Positions 21,735 through 58,904 of a stretch of 64,000 nucleotides of DNA are shown one piece after another (within the stretch, counting starts at the first letter, position 1; the number at the start of each line of letters is the position of its first letter). Origin of the DNA: a virus. The stretch spans positions 1 to 64,000 of IMG/VR virus record IMGVR_UViG_3300005613_000057; one strand, written 5' to 3'. The position numbers and the translations under genes were made by a program. The notes below the pieces were generated by a model. It had not been told where the DNA came from, did not search any database, and worked only from the letters and a program-made list of their open reading frames with translations.

Positions 21735-21932
21735 ATGGAATCTTTCAAAGACTACATGGCAGAAAAAGACAATCCAAAAAACTATATCCTCAAGAAAGAC
21801 CTTGAGGACAACTTTGTTCTTCTTGATTCCGAAGGAAAGGAAATCAAGAAATCCGATTCAAAGAAAGAACTAGAGAAATACGCTAAAGAGCATGGTTATG
21901 AGTTGATGTATTTCAATGAAGATAGCATGTAA
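21735..21932 (+). CDS. Hypothetical protein, 65 residues
   Basis: TATAGGAGAATCAT precedes the ATG. The small charged protein (MESFKDYMAEKDNPKNYILK...) has a KKELEKYAKEHGYELMYFNE tail. It overlaps the SET-domain gene by 17 bases. Confidence 0.55.
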   Translation: MESFKDYMAEKDNPKNYILKKDLEDNFVLLDSEGKEIKKSDSKKELEKYAKEHGYELMYFNEDSM

Positions 21933-22296
21933 AAAATCTGAAAAAGGTGGATTTGGTGTTTTCGCAACAGATTTCATCAAAGAAAACGAATTGATTGAGG
22001 TTTGCCCCGTTCTTCCTATTCACTTCAAGGAATGGGGTTGTCTTCAACATTCAAAACTCATTGACTACATCTTTGAATGGGCTCCTACTGTAGAAAAAAG
22101 AATAGGCTTTATTCTCGGGTATGGTATGGTGTATAATCATTCATACCAACCCAATTCCAAAACCATAAGAGATATACACACGGATACGTTCACCTTCTAT
22201 GCTTTGAGAGACATAGAAGAGGGAGAGGAAATAACACACAATTACAATGGATCTCCTGGCCACACTGGAGATGTTTGGTTTGAGGTAAAGGAGTAG
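21916..22296 (+). CDS. SET-domain protein (putative protein lysine methyltransferase), 126 residues
   Basis: KSEKGGFGVFATDFIKENEL is the SET-N start (GxGVFA). GYGMVYNHSYQPNSK corresponds to the NHS-x-x-PN pseudoknot motif that binds S-adenosylmethionine. FYALRDIEEGEEITHNYNG is the SET-C motif ending in the catalytic tyrosine region. All core motifs are present in a minimal domain without pre- or post-SET parts. Such enzymes methylate lysines, on histones in eukaryotes and on ribosomal or unknown proteins in bacteria. It precedes gp46. The substrate in a phage is unknown. Confidence 0.75.
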   Translation: MKIACKKSEKGGFGVFATDFIKENELIEVCPVLPIHFKEWGCLQHSKLIDYIFEWAPTVEKRIGFILGYGMVYNHSYQPNSKTIRDIHTDTFTFYALRDIEEGEEITHNYNGSPGHTGDVWFEVKE

Positions 22297-22302
22297 ATTA
22301 TT

Positions 22303-22506
22303 TTGATAAAATTTGAAAAAATAAGATGGAAAAACTTTTTGAGTACTGGAAATAGATTTACAGAAGTAACTCTCAATGAATCTAGAACCACATTAATTTC
22401 TGGATCAAATGGACATGGAAAATGTCTAGATCCCGATACTAGCATAGAAATAGACATAAAAGACCCAAAAACAGAAAAGAGATTTAGAGATTTTTTAAAG
22501 AAATAA
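22303..22506 (+). CDS. 46: gp46 N-terminal fragment with split-intein IntN
   Basis: TTG 22303 is chosen because AAGGAG lies eight bases upstream. Residues 1-40 are the start of gp46, the SbcC/Rad50-like subunit of the recombination nuclease, up to the Walker A motif SGSNGHGK. Residue 41 is Cys, the first residue of an intein (CLDPDTSIEIDIKDPKTEKR, block A). The frame stops at TAA 22504 after 27 intein residues. The next frame begins at 22542 with the rest of the intein and gp46. The product is active only if joined to the second fragment by trans-splicing, which would give GHGKSTILDAL, a complete Walker A. Confidence 0.85.
   Translation: MIKFEKIRWKNFLSTGNRFTEVTLNESRTTLISGSNGHGKCLDPDTSIEIDIKDPKTEKRFRDFLKK
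22423..22503 (+). other. IntN half of split intein (27 residues)
   Basis: It starts at Cys (TGT 22423-22425) and covers only intein block A. Classical split inteins have an IntN of about 100 residues; this short IntN matches the class called atypically split inteins. Confidence 0.8.
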
Positions 22507-22541
22507 TTTCTTGTCCAAACCATCAAGGAAAATAATAATAA

Positions 22542-22913
22542 ATGAAAGTGACAATAAAAAATATTGTTGATTTTTATAGAGAAAATCCTGATCTTATAGG
22601 TGAAATAGATGTAAAAACTAGATTTGGATTCAAAAAAATTCAATATGCCGATTTAACTTCAAGGAATTCTGAAGTTTATGAAGTGATCTTAGAATCTGGA
22701 AAAAAATTAAAAACTTCCCCCGAACACTTATTGTTGAATTCAACAGGAAAATGGAGCAAAGTTTCCGAGTTGGAAGAGGAAACATTTTTATTCACTGAAA
22801 ATGGTTTGGAAAAGATAATTTCCATTGAAAAAATCAATTCAACGATGGACCTATATGATCTACAGGTTGAAGATGTCCACGAATTTTATGCTAATGGCAT
22901 AGTATCACACAAT
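22542..22913 (+). other. IntC half of split intein (124 residues)
   Basis: It runs from the new ATG to Asn (AAT 22911-22913). It has block B His, block F and block G, and no homing-endonuclease domain. Confidence 0.8.
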
Positions 22914-24512
22914 TCCACCATTTTGGATGCTCTAGCATTTTCCCTGTTTGGAAAAACTTTCCGAAATATCAACCTTCCACAACTACCCAACTCAATCAAT
23001 CAAAAAGATTGTCTAGTTGAATTGGAATTCACTGCTGGTGGTTCTGAAATCAAAGTCATTCGTGGATTAAATCCAAAGAAATTTGAGATATACAAGAATG
23101 GAACTCTCATAGAGCAATCCGCAAAATCCAAGGATTATCAAAGACAATTTGAAGAAACCATCTTGAAGATGTCATTCAAGGCATTCTGTCAAGTTGTCAT
23201 TCTTGGCTCCAGCAACTATGTTCCATTCATGCGACTTACTGCATCGGATCGCCGCTCCATTGTTGAATCAATCTTGGACATTGATGTGTTCACATCAATG
23301 AATACTGTTCTCAAGAGTAGAATGTCGGAAAACAAGGATTTCATCAAGAACATCGCACACAAAATTGAACTCCAAGAAGAAAAAATTCGCAGTCAACTTG
23401 CCATCATTGAAAACCTCAAATCGGTTTCTCAAGATGCCATCGACAACAATCACAAAGAAATAGAAGAATCCAAGAACAAACTGAACTCTCTACTTGAAAG
23501 TATTCAATCATACAAGAACAAGATAGATTCTCTGAAAAGTCAAATAACAGACAAGGATTCCGTAGCAAACAAACTCAAGAAACTGGAATCTTTTGAGAAG
23601 CAGATTCAAAAACAAATAAAGACAATGGACGAACGCATTGAGTCATACTCTGAAATGACTCACTGTTCCAGTTGCCAACAAACCATCAATGAAGAACACA
23701 AGACTTCTTTGATTGAAAAGAAGAAGAACAAGAAGGAAGAACTCAAGAAAGCTTTCTCGGAACTTCTTCAGAAGAAAAAAGAAATTTCCTCAAGAAAAAG
23801 TGAAATAGATGAAGTTCTTGAAAGCATCAACACCAATCACGAAAAGATATATGAAATCAATTCCGAGGTCAATGGAATCAATACATACATTCAGCGTCTT
23901 CAAAGAAGCAACGAATCTCTTCTCTCTTCAAATGGTGAAACAGAACAAGAAGAAGACAAGTTGAATGATTTGAGAAGTGAAGAAAAAAATCTTGTCGTGA
24001 CCAAAGAAGAGCTTGTAGAAAATGATTCTCTCTATGGAATGGCATCCGTTCTTCTGAAAGACAGTGGAATCAAGAGAAGAATCATTTCACACTATATTCC
24101 AATCATCAACAAGGTAATCAACAGTTATCTTCAACAGATGAACTTCTTCGTTCTTTTTGAATTGGACGAGGAATTCAATGAGAAAATCAAAAGTCGGCAT
24201 CGTGATGAATTCACATACAACAGTTTCAGTGAAGGTGAGAAGAGAAAGATTGACTTGGCACTTCTGTTTGCATGGAGAAAGATTGCTCAAGTCAAGAACT
24301 CCGTGAATACAAATCTCCTGATTCTTGATGAAATTTTGGACGGAAGTTTGGACAACAATTCCACCGAAAGTTTTCTTGATATCATTGCGAGTTTGGATAA
24401 AAATACAAACTTGTTTGTGATTTCCCACAAACCAAAGGAAGTCATTCAAGACAGATTTGAGAAACAAATCACCTTTGTCAAGAAGAACAACTTCAGTCAA
24501 ATTGAGAGGTAG
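22542..24512 (+). CDS. 46: IntC plus gp46 C-terminal part (recombination nuclease ATPase subunit)
   Basis: The first 124 residues are the IntC. Block B is SPEH (59-62), block F is DLYDLQVEDVHEFYANG, and block G is VSHN ending at Asn124, followed by Ser125 as +1 extein residue. gp46 then resumes with STILDALAFSLFGKTFRN. Long coiled-coil arms surround a zinc-hook CSSC. The C-terminal signature FSEGEKRKIDLALLFAWR and Walker B LLILDEILDG complete the ABC-type ATPase. Extein parts total 572 residues, against 560 in T4. gp46 with gp47 resects DNA ends in recombination-dependent replication. AAGGA lies 13 bases before ATG 22542, and three TAA codons in the same frame directly precede it, so separate initiation is required. 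Confidence 0.9.
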   Translation: MKVTIKNIVDFYRENPDLIGEIDVKTRFGFKKIQYADLTSRNSEVYEVILESGKKLKTSPEHLLLNSTGKWSKVSELEEETFLFTENGLEKIISIEKINSTMDLYDLQVEDVHEFYANGIVSHNSTILDALAFSLFGKTFRNINLPQLPNSINQKDCLVELEFTAGGSEIKVIRGLNPKKFEIYKNGTLIEQSAKSKDYQRQFEETILKMSFKAFCQVVILGSSNYVPFMRLTASDRRSIVESILDIDVFTSMNTVLKSRMSENKDFIKNIAHKIELQEEKIRSQLAIIENLKSVSQDAIDNNHKEIEESKNKLNSLLESIQSYKNKIDSLKSQITDKDSVANKLKKLESFEKQIQKQIKTMDERIESYSEMTHCSSCQQTINEEHKTSLIEKKKNKKEELKKAFSELLQKKKEISSRKSEIDEVLESINTNHEKIYEINSEVNGINTYIQRLQRSNESLLSSNGETEQEEDKLNDLRSEEKNLVVTKEELVENDSLYGMASVLLKDSGIKRRIISHYIPIINKVINSYLQQMNFFVLFELDEEFNEKIKSRHRDEFTYNSFSEGEKRKIDLALLFAWRKIAQVKNSVNTNLLILDEILDGSLDNNSTESFLDIIASLDKNTNLFVISHKPKEVIQDRFEKQITFVKKNNFSQIER

Positions 24513-39035: not shown

Positions 39036-40049
39036 TCAAATATTTAAAGACTCAACATAAAGTTCATTGATGATCTTCTTAAGCTTCTCTGGACTATTTA
39101 TACCCATTCTGTCTATCTCTTCCGAGATTATGGTCAAAGTGTCTTTTTGCAAGTCAATCTTCTCTTCCTCTGTTGAATTTTCATCGTCCAATTCAACAAC
39201 AGTGAGATTTGCTACAGGAAGAGAATTCAACTCGTCAATCAACAAGTCAACTCCATTGTTACTTCTTCCTTCTCTTCTGTCAACAAGAATCTTTACATAT
39301 TTGTTCCGAAAATCTTCCTTGTTCAATTCCTCGTTTTCATCGTATACAAAGACATGGAACATCTTGTTTTTGTTCTCCACAAACTCAAACTCTCCAGTTT
39401 CAGTGTCAAGAACATGAAACCCCTTCTTCATGTTCGCATCGGAAAACGTGATTTGATATGGTGTCCCAAAATAGTGTATGTTTCCCTTGGATTGCTTTGC
39501 ATGAAAATGACCACTGTAGACAGCATCAAACCTTGAAAAGATTTTTGGTTCCAAACCATCTCGGAATTTCAAGCCAGGAATCACTTCACACCCATTGATT
39601 TCAAAGTGTCCCATTAGAATCTTGGCACGGCATTTCTTAATGAAAGACAGAAAATCCTTTGCGTTTCTCTTGTTCAACCAAGGAACCAACGCAATGCTCA
39701 ACCCCGCCAAATCCATTGTAACAGGTTCTTCGTGTAGAATGAATGACGAATACCGTTCTCCCAAAATTTCTTTTAATGAATTGACTTCATTGGTGCTTCT
39801 GTAATATGTGTCGTGGTTTCCAAGAATGCAATGAAACTTGATTCCCTCCAGTTTGCTCAAAAACCTCTTGCGAACTTGATTCAATGTGTTCACATTCACA
39901 TACTTGCGACGGTCGAAGAAATCTCCCAAGTGAATGATCGTGTCTATGTTGTTTTCCCGAACATACGGAAAGAACTGATTCTCAAAGAAGTTCAGGAAAT
40001 GATCGAGAAACAGTTCGTTGTCGTTGCGTGCGCCAAAAGTGCGAGTCAC
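39036..40049 (-). CDS. 47: gp47 recombination nuclease subunit (Mre11/SbcD-like), N-terminus frameshifted
   Basis: NTIIHLGDFFDRRKYV, CILGNHDTYY and VYSGHFHAKQ are calcineurin-like nuclease metal motifs. The open frame starts at GTG 40049, but the true start is probably ATG 40068. That frame reads MKVAIICDSHF and then shifts by one base at a run of four T (40035-40038) into GARNDNELF. With three T residues the protein would be continuous and have the first metal motif (DSHF, equal to D-x-H). gp47 works with gp46 in end resection. It abuts the homing endonuclease stop. gp46 lies 15 kb away on the other strand. Confidence 0.85.
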   Translation of the reverse strand: MTRTFGARNDNELFLDHFLNFFENQFFPYVRENNIDTIIHLGDFFDRRKYVNVNTLNQVRKRFLSKLEGIKFHCILGNHDTYYRSTNEVNSLKEILGERYSSFILHEEPVTMDLAGLSIALVPWLNKRNAKDFLSFIKKCRAKILMGHFEINGCEVIPGLKFRDGLEPKIFSRFDAVYSGHFHAKQSKGNIHYFGTPYQITFSDANMKKGFHVLDTETGEFEFVENKNKMFHVFVYDENEELNKEDFRNKYVKILVDRREGRSNNGVDLLIDELNSLPVANLTVVELDDENSTEEEKIDLQKDTLTIISEEIDRMGINSPEKLKKIINELYVESLNI

Positions 40050-56720: not shown

Positions 56721-58904
56721 TCAAGACCAAAAGAAACTTTGATCGTCTTCCATGTCTTTTTCACTCGGAAGATTCTCAATTTTGTTTCTTGTTGATCCTT
56801 CGCGGGAAAGATTCAGAGCATCCTGTGTTCTCTGATCTTCATAGTCAACAATTCCGTCCTCTATGAACCCGAAAGGACTCAGAGACTGCTCCAAATCGTG
56901 AATTCTCTTCTCATAGAGTTTCTTTCTTGTGTCAATGTCTATGATTTCGCGGAAATATGATTGAGTCGTCAACCAAGAGAACAGAACCAAAGTGTCAACC
57001 AAGTCATCATGATACCCTTCGGAAGCTTCGTAGGATACTCCCTTGGAAATAAAGGTGCTGAACTCGGAAATGATATCCAAATCGGGAATCAGAAGTTTAT
57101 CCTGTTCTATCATCTCCTTGAGAATTGAACACCCCAACTTCTTGATTTGATAACTGGTTCGGACACCGTATTGAACCTTTCCACTCTCACCAAATCCACC
57201 GTCCACCTTTTGACCTTTCTTGCCACGATTAGACACCAAAAGAACATTCTCATACTCCATTTCCTGATATAGAATATCTGCGACTTCAGAACCGACATCG
57301 TTGATTTCAACAAGAACGTGTGCTTCGTTGTAGTAGTTACCTATCTTTTGTATTATCGTGGGGTAGACCAAGACAGGCATTTCATTGTTTCGAAACTTCG
57401 CAACAACTCTATAAGGCATCTCCGTCACATCAACCACCGTAAATGCGTGGTAATCTGCACCCTGAGCCCTGCATGTGTCTATGCACATGATGTATATTCG
57501 GTCCTTCTTTGGTTCTTCAAAAATATCCAATCCCTCCGTGGAACTCTTGATCGGATCATCAAACACCATTGTCGCCAGTTTTGCGGAAGAAATCAGAGTG
57601 TCTTCTGAGCCCAAGAAAACACATTCAAACTCCTGCATCCACTGACGTTCAGAAGTGTTGCGAATTGTCTCTTCCTTGAACTTTTGGTCTCTGCCGGGAA
57701 TTTCATTCCAATGAACTTCAATCGGAACATAGGAATTCTTGTCTTTTTCAGCGTTCTTCCACATCTTGTAGAACATGTTCATTCCCTTGGGTGTGCTTAC
57801 CACAACGACCTTTGTGGATTTACCCGAAGATATGGTGGGATATACGGAATTGAAGAAATCCTCTGCAATGTTGTTTGGAACGAATGCAAATTCGTCAAGT
57901 AGAATGCAATTGTGAATATCTATTCCATTAGCGTAAAATGAATGAACTTCTTCAACATCCAACAAATCATATACATTTTCCACACCAGATGGTGCAATTT
58001 TCACCACTTTGGTAAATGAGTTTCTTATGCAAACATTGTCTTGTGGATTTAGAGATATTGCTTCCTTGAAACCCCCACTAGTATTCACCAAATGCTCTGG
58101 AGTGCATTTCAAAGAAGAACCATTGTCAAAAAATATTTTTACAGTTTCACGATTGAAGGTTTTACTCAATCCTCGGAATTTTTTAAATCCTTTACTTGTG
58201 AGGACTTCATATTCCTTCTTTTCATCAGAGAAAAATACCAACTCTTGTATTTGTTTTTTATCATTTTCATTTAAATATTTATAATTGTTTATATTTCTAG
58301 ACGAGTTTGAGTATAAATCCTCTATGGTGGTTTCAAAAATATTCCCAAAAGAATCCCTCAGTGTTATTGAACTATCTCCACTTATGCAGCTGTAAGTATC
58401 ACCACGAACGGCAGAAGAGGATGTCGATGAAGCAATCACCTTTGAACCGTTCTCAAGGTGAATGGATAGTTTGTTCCATTCCACTATTCCCTGTTGCAGC
58501 CATTTGGGAAGATTTTCATACGATTTCTTCAATCTCTGAAGAAGTTCTCTTGCAGTCGTCAACTTGTTCGCAAGAATCGCAACCTTCTTGTCCTGATTGA
58601 ACAGAACATGGTGAAGAAGGTATGATATCATGGTGGTTGACTTGCCACTCTGACGAGGAAGTTTGCAAATTGTGAAGCGATTGCTGTGTATCGTTCTTAC
58701 AATGTTTTCTTGAAATGGATACATCTCAAAGGGAACCAACCCTCTGTCAACATGAACGATTTTGATGTAGGTTTCTATGAAGTATACTGGGTCATTTGCA
58801 CACTTCATATACTCCTCGATTTGCTCAGGAGTAAATTCTACAGGAGTATTTGCGGCCTTGATAAGTGGGTTGCCGAGGTAATGATCATTGTTTTTCGTCG
58901 GCAT
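56721..58904 (-). CDS. 17: Terminase large subunit gp17 with mini-intein
   Basis: 727 residues, 567 without the intein. CKLPRQSGKST (Walker A, Lys88) and, after the intein, CILLDEFAFVPNNI (Walker B and catalytic Glu) form the packaging ATPase. MCIDTCRAQGADYHAFTVVD starts the RNase H-like nuclease. The intein spans residues 173-332 between DTYS and CILLDEF. The spliced product would be typical gp17. The N-terminus overlaps the small terminase gene by 20 bases. Confidence 0.93.
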   Translation of the reverse strand: MPTKNNDHYLGNPLIKAANTPVEFTPEQIEEYMKCANDPVYFIETYIKIVHVDRGLVPFEMYPFQENIVRTIHSNRFTICKLPRQSGKSTTMISYLLHHVLFNQDKKVAILANKLTTARELLQRLKKSYENLPKWLQQGIVEWNKLSIHLENGSKVIASSTSSSAVRGDTYSCISGDSSITLRDSFGNIFETTIEDLYSNSSRNINNYKYLNENDKKQIQELVFFSDEKKEYEVLTSKGFKKFRGLSKTFNRETVKIFFDNGSSLKCTPEHLVNTSGGFKEAISLNPQDNVCIRNSFTKVVKIAPSGVENVYDLLDVEEVHSFYANGIDIHNCILLDEFAFVPNNIAEDFFNSVYPTISSGKSTKVVVVSTPKGMNMFYKMWKNAEKDKNSYVPIEVHWNEIPGRDQKFKEETIRNTSERQWMQEFECVFLGSEDTLISSAKLATMVFDDPIKSSTEGLDIFEEPKKDRIYIMCIDTCRAQGADYHAFTVVDVTEMPYRVVAKFRNNEMPVLVYPTIIQKIGNYYNEAHVLVEINDVGSEVADILYQEMEYENVLLVSNRGKKGQKVDGGFGESGKVQYGVRTSYQIKKLGCSILKEMIEQDKLLIPDLDIISEFSTFISKGVSYEASEGYHDDLVDTLVLFSWLTTQSYFREIIDIDTRKKLYEKRIHDLEQSLSPFGFIEDGIVDYEDQRTQDALNLSREGSTRNKIENLPSEKDMEDDQSFFWS
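57909..58388 (-). other. Contiguous mini-intein in gp17 (160 residues)
   Basis: It starts CISGDSSITLRDSFGN (block A), has block B CTPEH, then VYDLLDVEEVHSFYANGIDI (block F/G) and ends HN before +1 Cys. It has no endonuclease domain; the middle spacer is about 50 residues. Confidence 0.9.

Follow-up and report, generated by a model that had tools for sequence, protein, structure and literature searches.

A putative atypically split intein with a 27-residue N-terminal fragment interrupts the Walker A motif of gp46 in a viral metagenomic record

Introduction

Fractured genes, reportedly described by Dassa et al. in 2009, are conserved phage genes for replication and repair in which a split intein separates two halves and a free-standing endonuclease, often VSR-like, lies between them. 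Eight gene types are said to be affected. Here we describe a gene for gp46, a DNA-repair ATPase of phages related to Rad50/SbcC, that is broken in its Walker A motif by a putative split intein with a 27-residue N-terminal fragment (IntN) and a long C-terminal fragment (IntC). The gene lies in a stretch of 64,000 nucleotides (the window), which makes up most of the 66,021-base viral record IMGVR_UViG_3300005613_000057 in IMG/VR.

VidaL, an atypically split intein, shares with AceL-TerL, GOS-TerL and the gp46 intein a short IntN, a long IntC and the same Hint fold (template modelling (TM) score 0.82-0.83 for VidaL); its structural-alignment identity with the gp46 intein is about 20%. The TerL inteins sit in the terminase and not in gp46, a long branch separates the TerL-type IntCs from the gp46 group, and the TerL relatives found in this analysis have, like gp46, a P-loop insertion. 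The fractured-gene arrangement is likewise present in 15 gp46 relatives and in the TerL relatives. However, the gp46 genes are broken after about 27 intein residues, whereas endonucleases usually sit near residue 100, and the window copy has no endonuclease. Generally, atypically split inteins have an IntN of about 15-40 aa and a long IntC (PMC12707363, PMC11766414); the IntN of AceL has 25 aa, and that of GOS has 37 aa and can be reduced to 27 (PMC11766414). According to the literature, the closest inteins by PDB sequence (gp41-1) and by fold (NrdJ-1) are split further toward the C-terminus, at the canonical site. In T4-like phages of Aeromonas, the Aes123 PolB1 split intein consists of an IntN gene, a VSR endonuclease gene and an IntC gene in tandem, as in the endonuclease-bearing gp46 relatives, but it resides in PolB, is split at the typical site and is cysteine-less (PMC11923092).

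A split gp46 gene in the window

The first gp46 open reading frame (ORF) runs from the N-extein directly into Cys1 and block A of the intein and then stops, and a second ORF with its own start carries the remainder of the intein and the rest of gp46 (Table 1). All class 1 intein residues are present, namely Cys41 of the gp46 N-half (equal to Cys1), SPEH62, HN124 and Ser+1. IntC matches Pfam Intein_splicing at 2e-14 and TIGR01443 intein_Cterm at 1.9e-6, and the best PDB sequence match is gp41-1 (1.3e-9). IntC ends in VHEFYANGIVSHN, and the C-extein then opens with STILDALAFSLFGK. The C-extein matches phrog_77 (SbcC-like subunit) at 1e-140 and contains a Zn-hook-like CSSC, the signature SEGEKRK and the Walker B motif LLILDEILDG. 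The gene thus belongs to the T4 gp46/SbcC-Rad50 family, with a Walker A motif that is whole only once the halves are joined. With 27 and 124 aa in separate ORFs, a stop and a new ATG, the pair is of the atypically split (S1) type.

Table 1. Features of the split gp46 locus and its putative partner gene in the window
Feature	Position	Strand	Remark
Shine-Dalgarno-like site GGAG of the gp46 N-half	22290-22293	+	
gp46 N-half ORF (N-extein, IntN and stop)	22303-22506	+	TTG start, GGAG 9 nt upstream
gp46 N-extein, 40 aa, MIKFEKIRWKNFLSTGN...SGSNGHGK, first half of Walker A	22303..22422	+	aligned with 19 other gp46 N-halves
IntN, 27 aa, Cys1 and block A, CLDPDTSIEIDIKDPKTEKRFRDFLKK	22423..22503	+	IntN profile 111 bits
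TAA stop closing gp46N-IntN	22504..22506	+	
35-nt intergenic gap, position of the endonuclease in relatives	22507..22541	+	none detectable in the window
Shine-Dalgarno-like site AAGGA for the IntC start	22525-22529	+	12 nt spacing
Three TAA codons in the frame of the IntC ORF, directly before its ATG	22533-22541	+	
IntC-gp46C ORF, 656 aa	22542-24512	+	own ATG
IntC, 124 aa: block B SPEH (His62), block F, block G VSHN (Asn124)	22542..22913	+	
gp46 C-extein from Ser+1 (STILDAL, second half of Walker A) to stop	22914..24512	+	
gp47-like nuclease partner (Mre11/SbcD-like)	39036..40049	-	E 1.4e-17

The initial annotation had proposed a split intein of this kind at Walker A, similar to AceL-TerL in its short IntN and long IntC, and the coordinates, motifs, profile matches, fold and 27 other split loci bear this out. 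It had also pointed to three in-frame stops before the second ATG that no single-base change could repair. We found the TAA TAA TAA as described; with these stops and with the two ORFs in different frames, a single indel could not fuse the halves.

Relatives at the same Walker A site

To place the locus, relatives were collected from IMG/VR with an IntC query and then with an IntC alignment; near-copies were removed, and both ends of the retained loci were readable. There were 34 distinct loci with an intein at exactly this Walker A site, 28 of them split and six contiguous (L082, L095, L115, L118, L127 and L137). The split position was common to all 28 split loci. Since these independent loci share the architecture, with stop and ATG placed nearly alike in the intein, chance can be ruled out. 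IntN lengths and gap sizes were tallied on 27 of the split loci, without the divergent L138; IntN measured 21-36 aa, and 26-33 aa in 25 of the 27. HN and Ser+1 were retained in 34/34 loci, and Cys1 and the block B SxxH each in 33/34. The divergent L138 (L138:2253-2423) carries Ser in place of Cys at position 1, with an IntN of 56 aa, L115 has AxxH as block B, and L104 (L104:3456-3521) has an IntN of just 21 aa and an IntC ORF without a nearby ATG.

The fold was modelled with AlphaFold2 on the contiguous relative L095 with 32 aligned sequences, giving a Hint fold with a predicted local distance difference test (pLDDT) score of 97.8. The model had 61 PDB matches at E<=0.001, the top ones being inteins, with NrdJ-1 first, VidaL second and gp41-1 also among the best. 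The split maps to the loop between the helix at residues 15-21 and the strand at 26-28 of this model. Between the split relatives L112 and L117, the ratio of nonsynonymous to synonymous divergence (dN/dS) of IntC was 0.10, indicating purifying selection and thus supporting the function of these inteins.

Outside this set, no intein was found in the readable Walker A regions of the 80 best gp46 relatives from a gp46 query (about 20 loci were unmatched by the search pattern), and no related intein was found in the bacterial and archaeal genomes searched. The 50,697 isolate phage records yielded no gp46 split intein at the thresholds used; most of the matches there were to TerL, and one further gene was UvsX/RecA-like.

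Endonuclease-like genes and remnants in the gap

Gap sizes were bimodal, with 6-332 nt in 12 loci and 901-1403 nt in 15. All 15 long gaps contained an ORF of 282-454 aa between IntN and IntC, some of them overlapping the IntC start. Many of these gap ORFs have an N-terminal repeat region in common, while their C-termini differ: VSR/DUF559-like in L110, L124, L128 and L134; a type with YPNSxMRYDF in L092, L098, L100, L101, L116 and L149, which is PD-(D/E)XK by inspection, without a Pfam match; and GIY-YIG in L113 (1.2e-10). Because Pfam support is weak for most gap ORFs, the label homing endonuclease rests on their position and their likeness to phage VSR endonucleases. Several differing nuclease-like C-termini follow similar N-terminal repeats (L092, L098, L109, L110, L113 and L124), a possible case of endonuclease domain shuffling.

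The short gaps were compared with the gap ORFs against 200 dinucleotide shuffles each. Endonuclease remnants were detected in 8 of the 12 (L083, L085, L086, L090, L106, L114, L120 and L121), with 0/200 shuffles scoring as well in each case, and no remnant above shuffles was found in the gaps of the window, L088, L093 and L104. The free-standing endonuclease between the halves that characterizes a fractured gene thus occurs in 15 relatives. The window gap has neither endonuclease nor detectable remnant, which suggests a derived form and not a full member of that class.

Tree of the inteins and apparent re-fusion

In the IntC tree, the endonuclease-bearing, short-gap and contiguous states were scattered, and well-supported branches force at least nine, seven and four changes, respectively. 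The window intein was sister to L149, which has a 454-aa gap ORF (support 96/87). The contiguous L095 fell inside a supported group with L092 (gap ORF) and L083 (remnant).

The split L117 (1,339-nt gap) and the contiguous L118 share about 88.5% DNA identity on both sides of the gap. For L117:2578-5372 against L118:3349-4843, the synonymous divergence (dS) was 0.14 in IntC, 0.72 in the C-extein and 0.72 in the first 24 IntN codons. The low IntC value compared with the C-extein suggests a recent transfer of the IntC part, possibly a conversion limited to the IntC side.

The TerL relatives have split inteins, inserted in the P-loop, with a VSR-like gene after an IntN of 33-39 aa. One contiguous TerL intein (L142:3449-4249) corresponds to L139-like DNA with about 0.93 kb deleted, and it keeps 33 aa resembling the endonuclease N-terminus (61% identity, 7e-11). 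It appears to be a TerL split intein re-fused by deletion of its endonuclease, which is direct evidence for a change from split to contiguous in TerL. Among the gp46 inteins, the overall direction of change is an inference. Separately, the TerL split intein L145:3741-4241 has 35 nt between IntN stop and IntC ATG, in parallel to the bare gap of the window.

Origin of the split and alternative explanations

We consider it very probable that the window pair is an active atypically split intein of the AceL/VidaL kind, derived from a fractured gene that lost its endonuclease. In this scheme, gp46 would be made as two proteins, IntN would dock on IntC to form the Hint fold, and class 1 splicing in trans through Cys1, the block B His62, Asn124 and Ser+1 would join GHGK to STIL and restore Walker A. 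The break would go back to an intein that had a free-standing gene for a homing endonuclease at residue ~27; later deletion would have removed this gene and left 35 nt with the ribosome-binding site of IntC, and splicing would have been kept because gp46 needs it. Several points weigh against this scheme. As many as 71 of the 200 shuffles scored as high as the 35-nt gap of the window, and because no remnant is detectable there, the loss of an endonuclease in this lineage, as opposed to its never having had one, rests on the tree. Its branches are long and many forks are unsettled, and the fold model is that of L095, not of the window pair itself.

One alternative is a direct origin of the split in a contiguous mini-intein by mutation to a stop and a new start, without an endonuclease stage and with trans-splicing intact. 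The six contiguous inteins at the same site and the short, remnant-free window gap are in its favor. We nevertheless regard it as unlikely, as the split position is identical to that of the endonuclease-bearing loci, the nearest intein (L149) has a full-length endonuclease ORF, and eight other short gaps hold remnants. Far less probable is a decaying or artefactual gp46, with a break that reflects a recent mutation inactivating the gene or an error of assembly. Although the locus comes from a single metagenomic record, there are multiple TAA codons and Shine-Dalgarno-like sites at both starts, the downstream gp46 motifs are intact, and the break is shared by 27 other loci. Equally improbable is one continuous precursor made by ribosomal bypass or frameshift across the 35 nt, or a joining of the halves by an RNA intron. 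The gap is short, and gene 60 of the related phage T4 uses bypassing, but IntC has its own ATG and Shine-Dalgarno-like site after three stops, gaps in relatives reach 1.4 kb with a separate ORF, and no group I/II intron was found by Rfam. Finally, the halves could associate and work without splicing, as in phage Aeh1 NrdA and the split gp43 of phage 25, which function as non-covalent assemblies (PMC2988022), but this seems hardly credible with the splicing residues so widely retained and the break inside the P-loop, between Lys and Ser.

The further idea of the initial annotation, that the need for two proteins might serve as a regulatory device, gained nothing in its favor; invasion by a selfish element and its decay suffice. 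Promoter and terminator signals at the break were no better than in shuffles.

For gp46 and TerL together, we cautiously favor a model in which atypically split inteins originate by invasion of an intein near residue 27-39, and not at the one canonical endonuclease site, by a free-standing homing-endonuclease gene. The endonuclease would then be lost before the split, which could itself be reversed by re-fusion, so contiguous mini-inteins could descend from split ones. It has been noted that endonuclease domains occupy one conserved intein site, and asked why they do not occur elsewhere (PMC6801210). The gp46 and TerL loci bear on this question, as they place free-standing endonuclease genes at another site (near residue 27 in gp46), with the intein split. 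In addition, homing itself may involve gp46-gp47 (PMC2988022), so that the element may be drawing on its host gene for its own spread.

Short-IntN split inteins in TerL (PMC11766414, PMC12707363) and split inteins flanking VSR endonucleases (Aes123 PolB) were already known. In the literature searched (subscription papers and Dassa 2009 were outside that search), no gp46 split intein was found, and gp46 as a host gene and the evolutionary series including re-fusion appear to be new. With these loci, a class that is valued for protein labelling and has few known natural examples gains one host gene and 28 naturally occurring split inteins with a short IntN. Through the series of intact endonuclease, remnant, bare gap and contiguous intein, both the origin of split inteins and its reversal become open to direct tests.

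Neighboring genes and other inteins

The gp47-like gene and gp46 of the window are separated by about 15 kb and lie on opposite strands; several relatives (e.g., L083 and L118) have the gp47-like gene directly upstream of gp46. In others, gp47 and the gp46 N-half are apparently fused in one ORF (L115:2645-5701, L127:2684-6304 and the L113-L123 group), and in L115 and L127 the fused ORF reads through the contiguous intein into gp46. Unlinked gp46 N-halves in the gp47-linked group (L113-L127) were considered and rejected, as the N-halves sit at the end of the gp47 ORF. The ORF at 21916-22296 of the window, immediately upstream of gp46, looks SET-domain-like by eye (NHSYQPNS, EEITHNYNG).

This genome has a second intein, a contiguous mini-intein (CISGDSSITL...YANGIDIHN, followed by C) in a 727-aa terminase large subunit (56721-58904, minus strand), located at a site other than Walker A. 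Among the isolate phages, the RecA/UvsX-like gene of Salicola phage SCTP-2 (L171:1361-3370, annotated as hypothetical) apparently carries two contiguous inteins, one of them in the P-loop.
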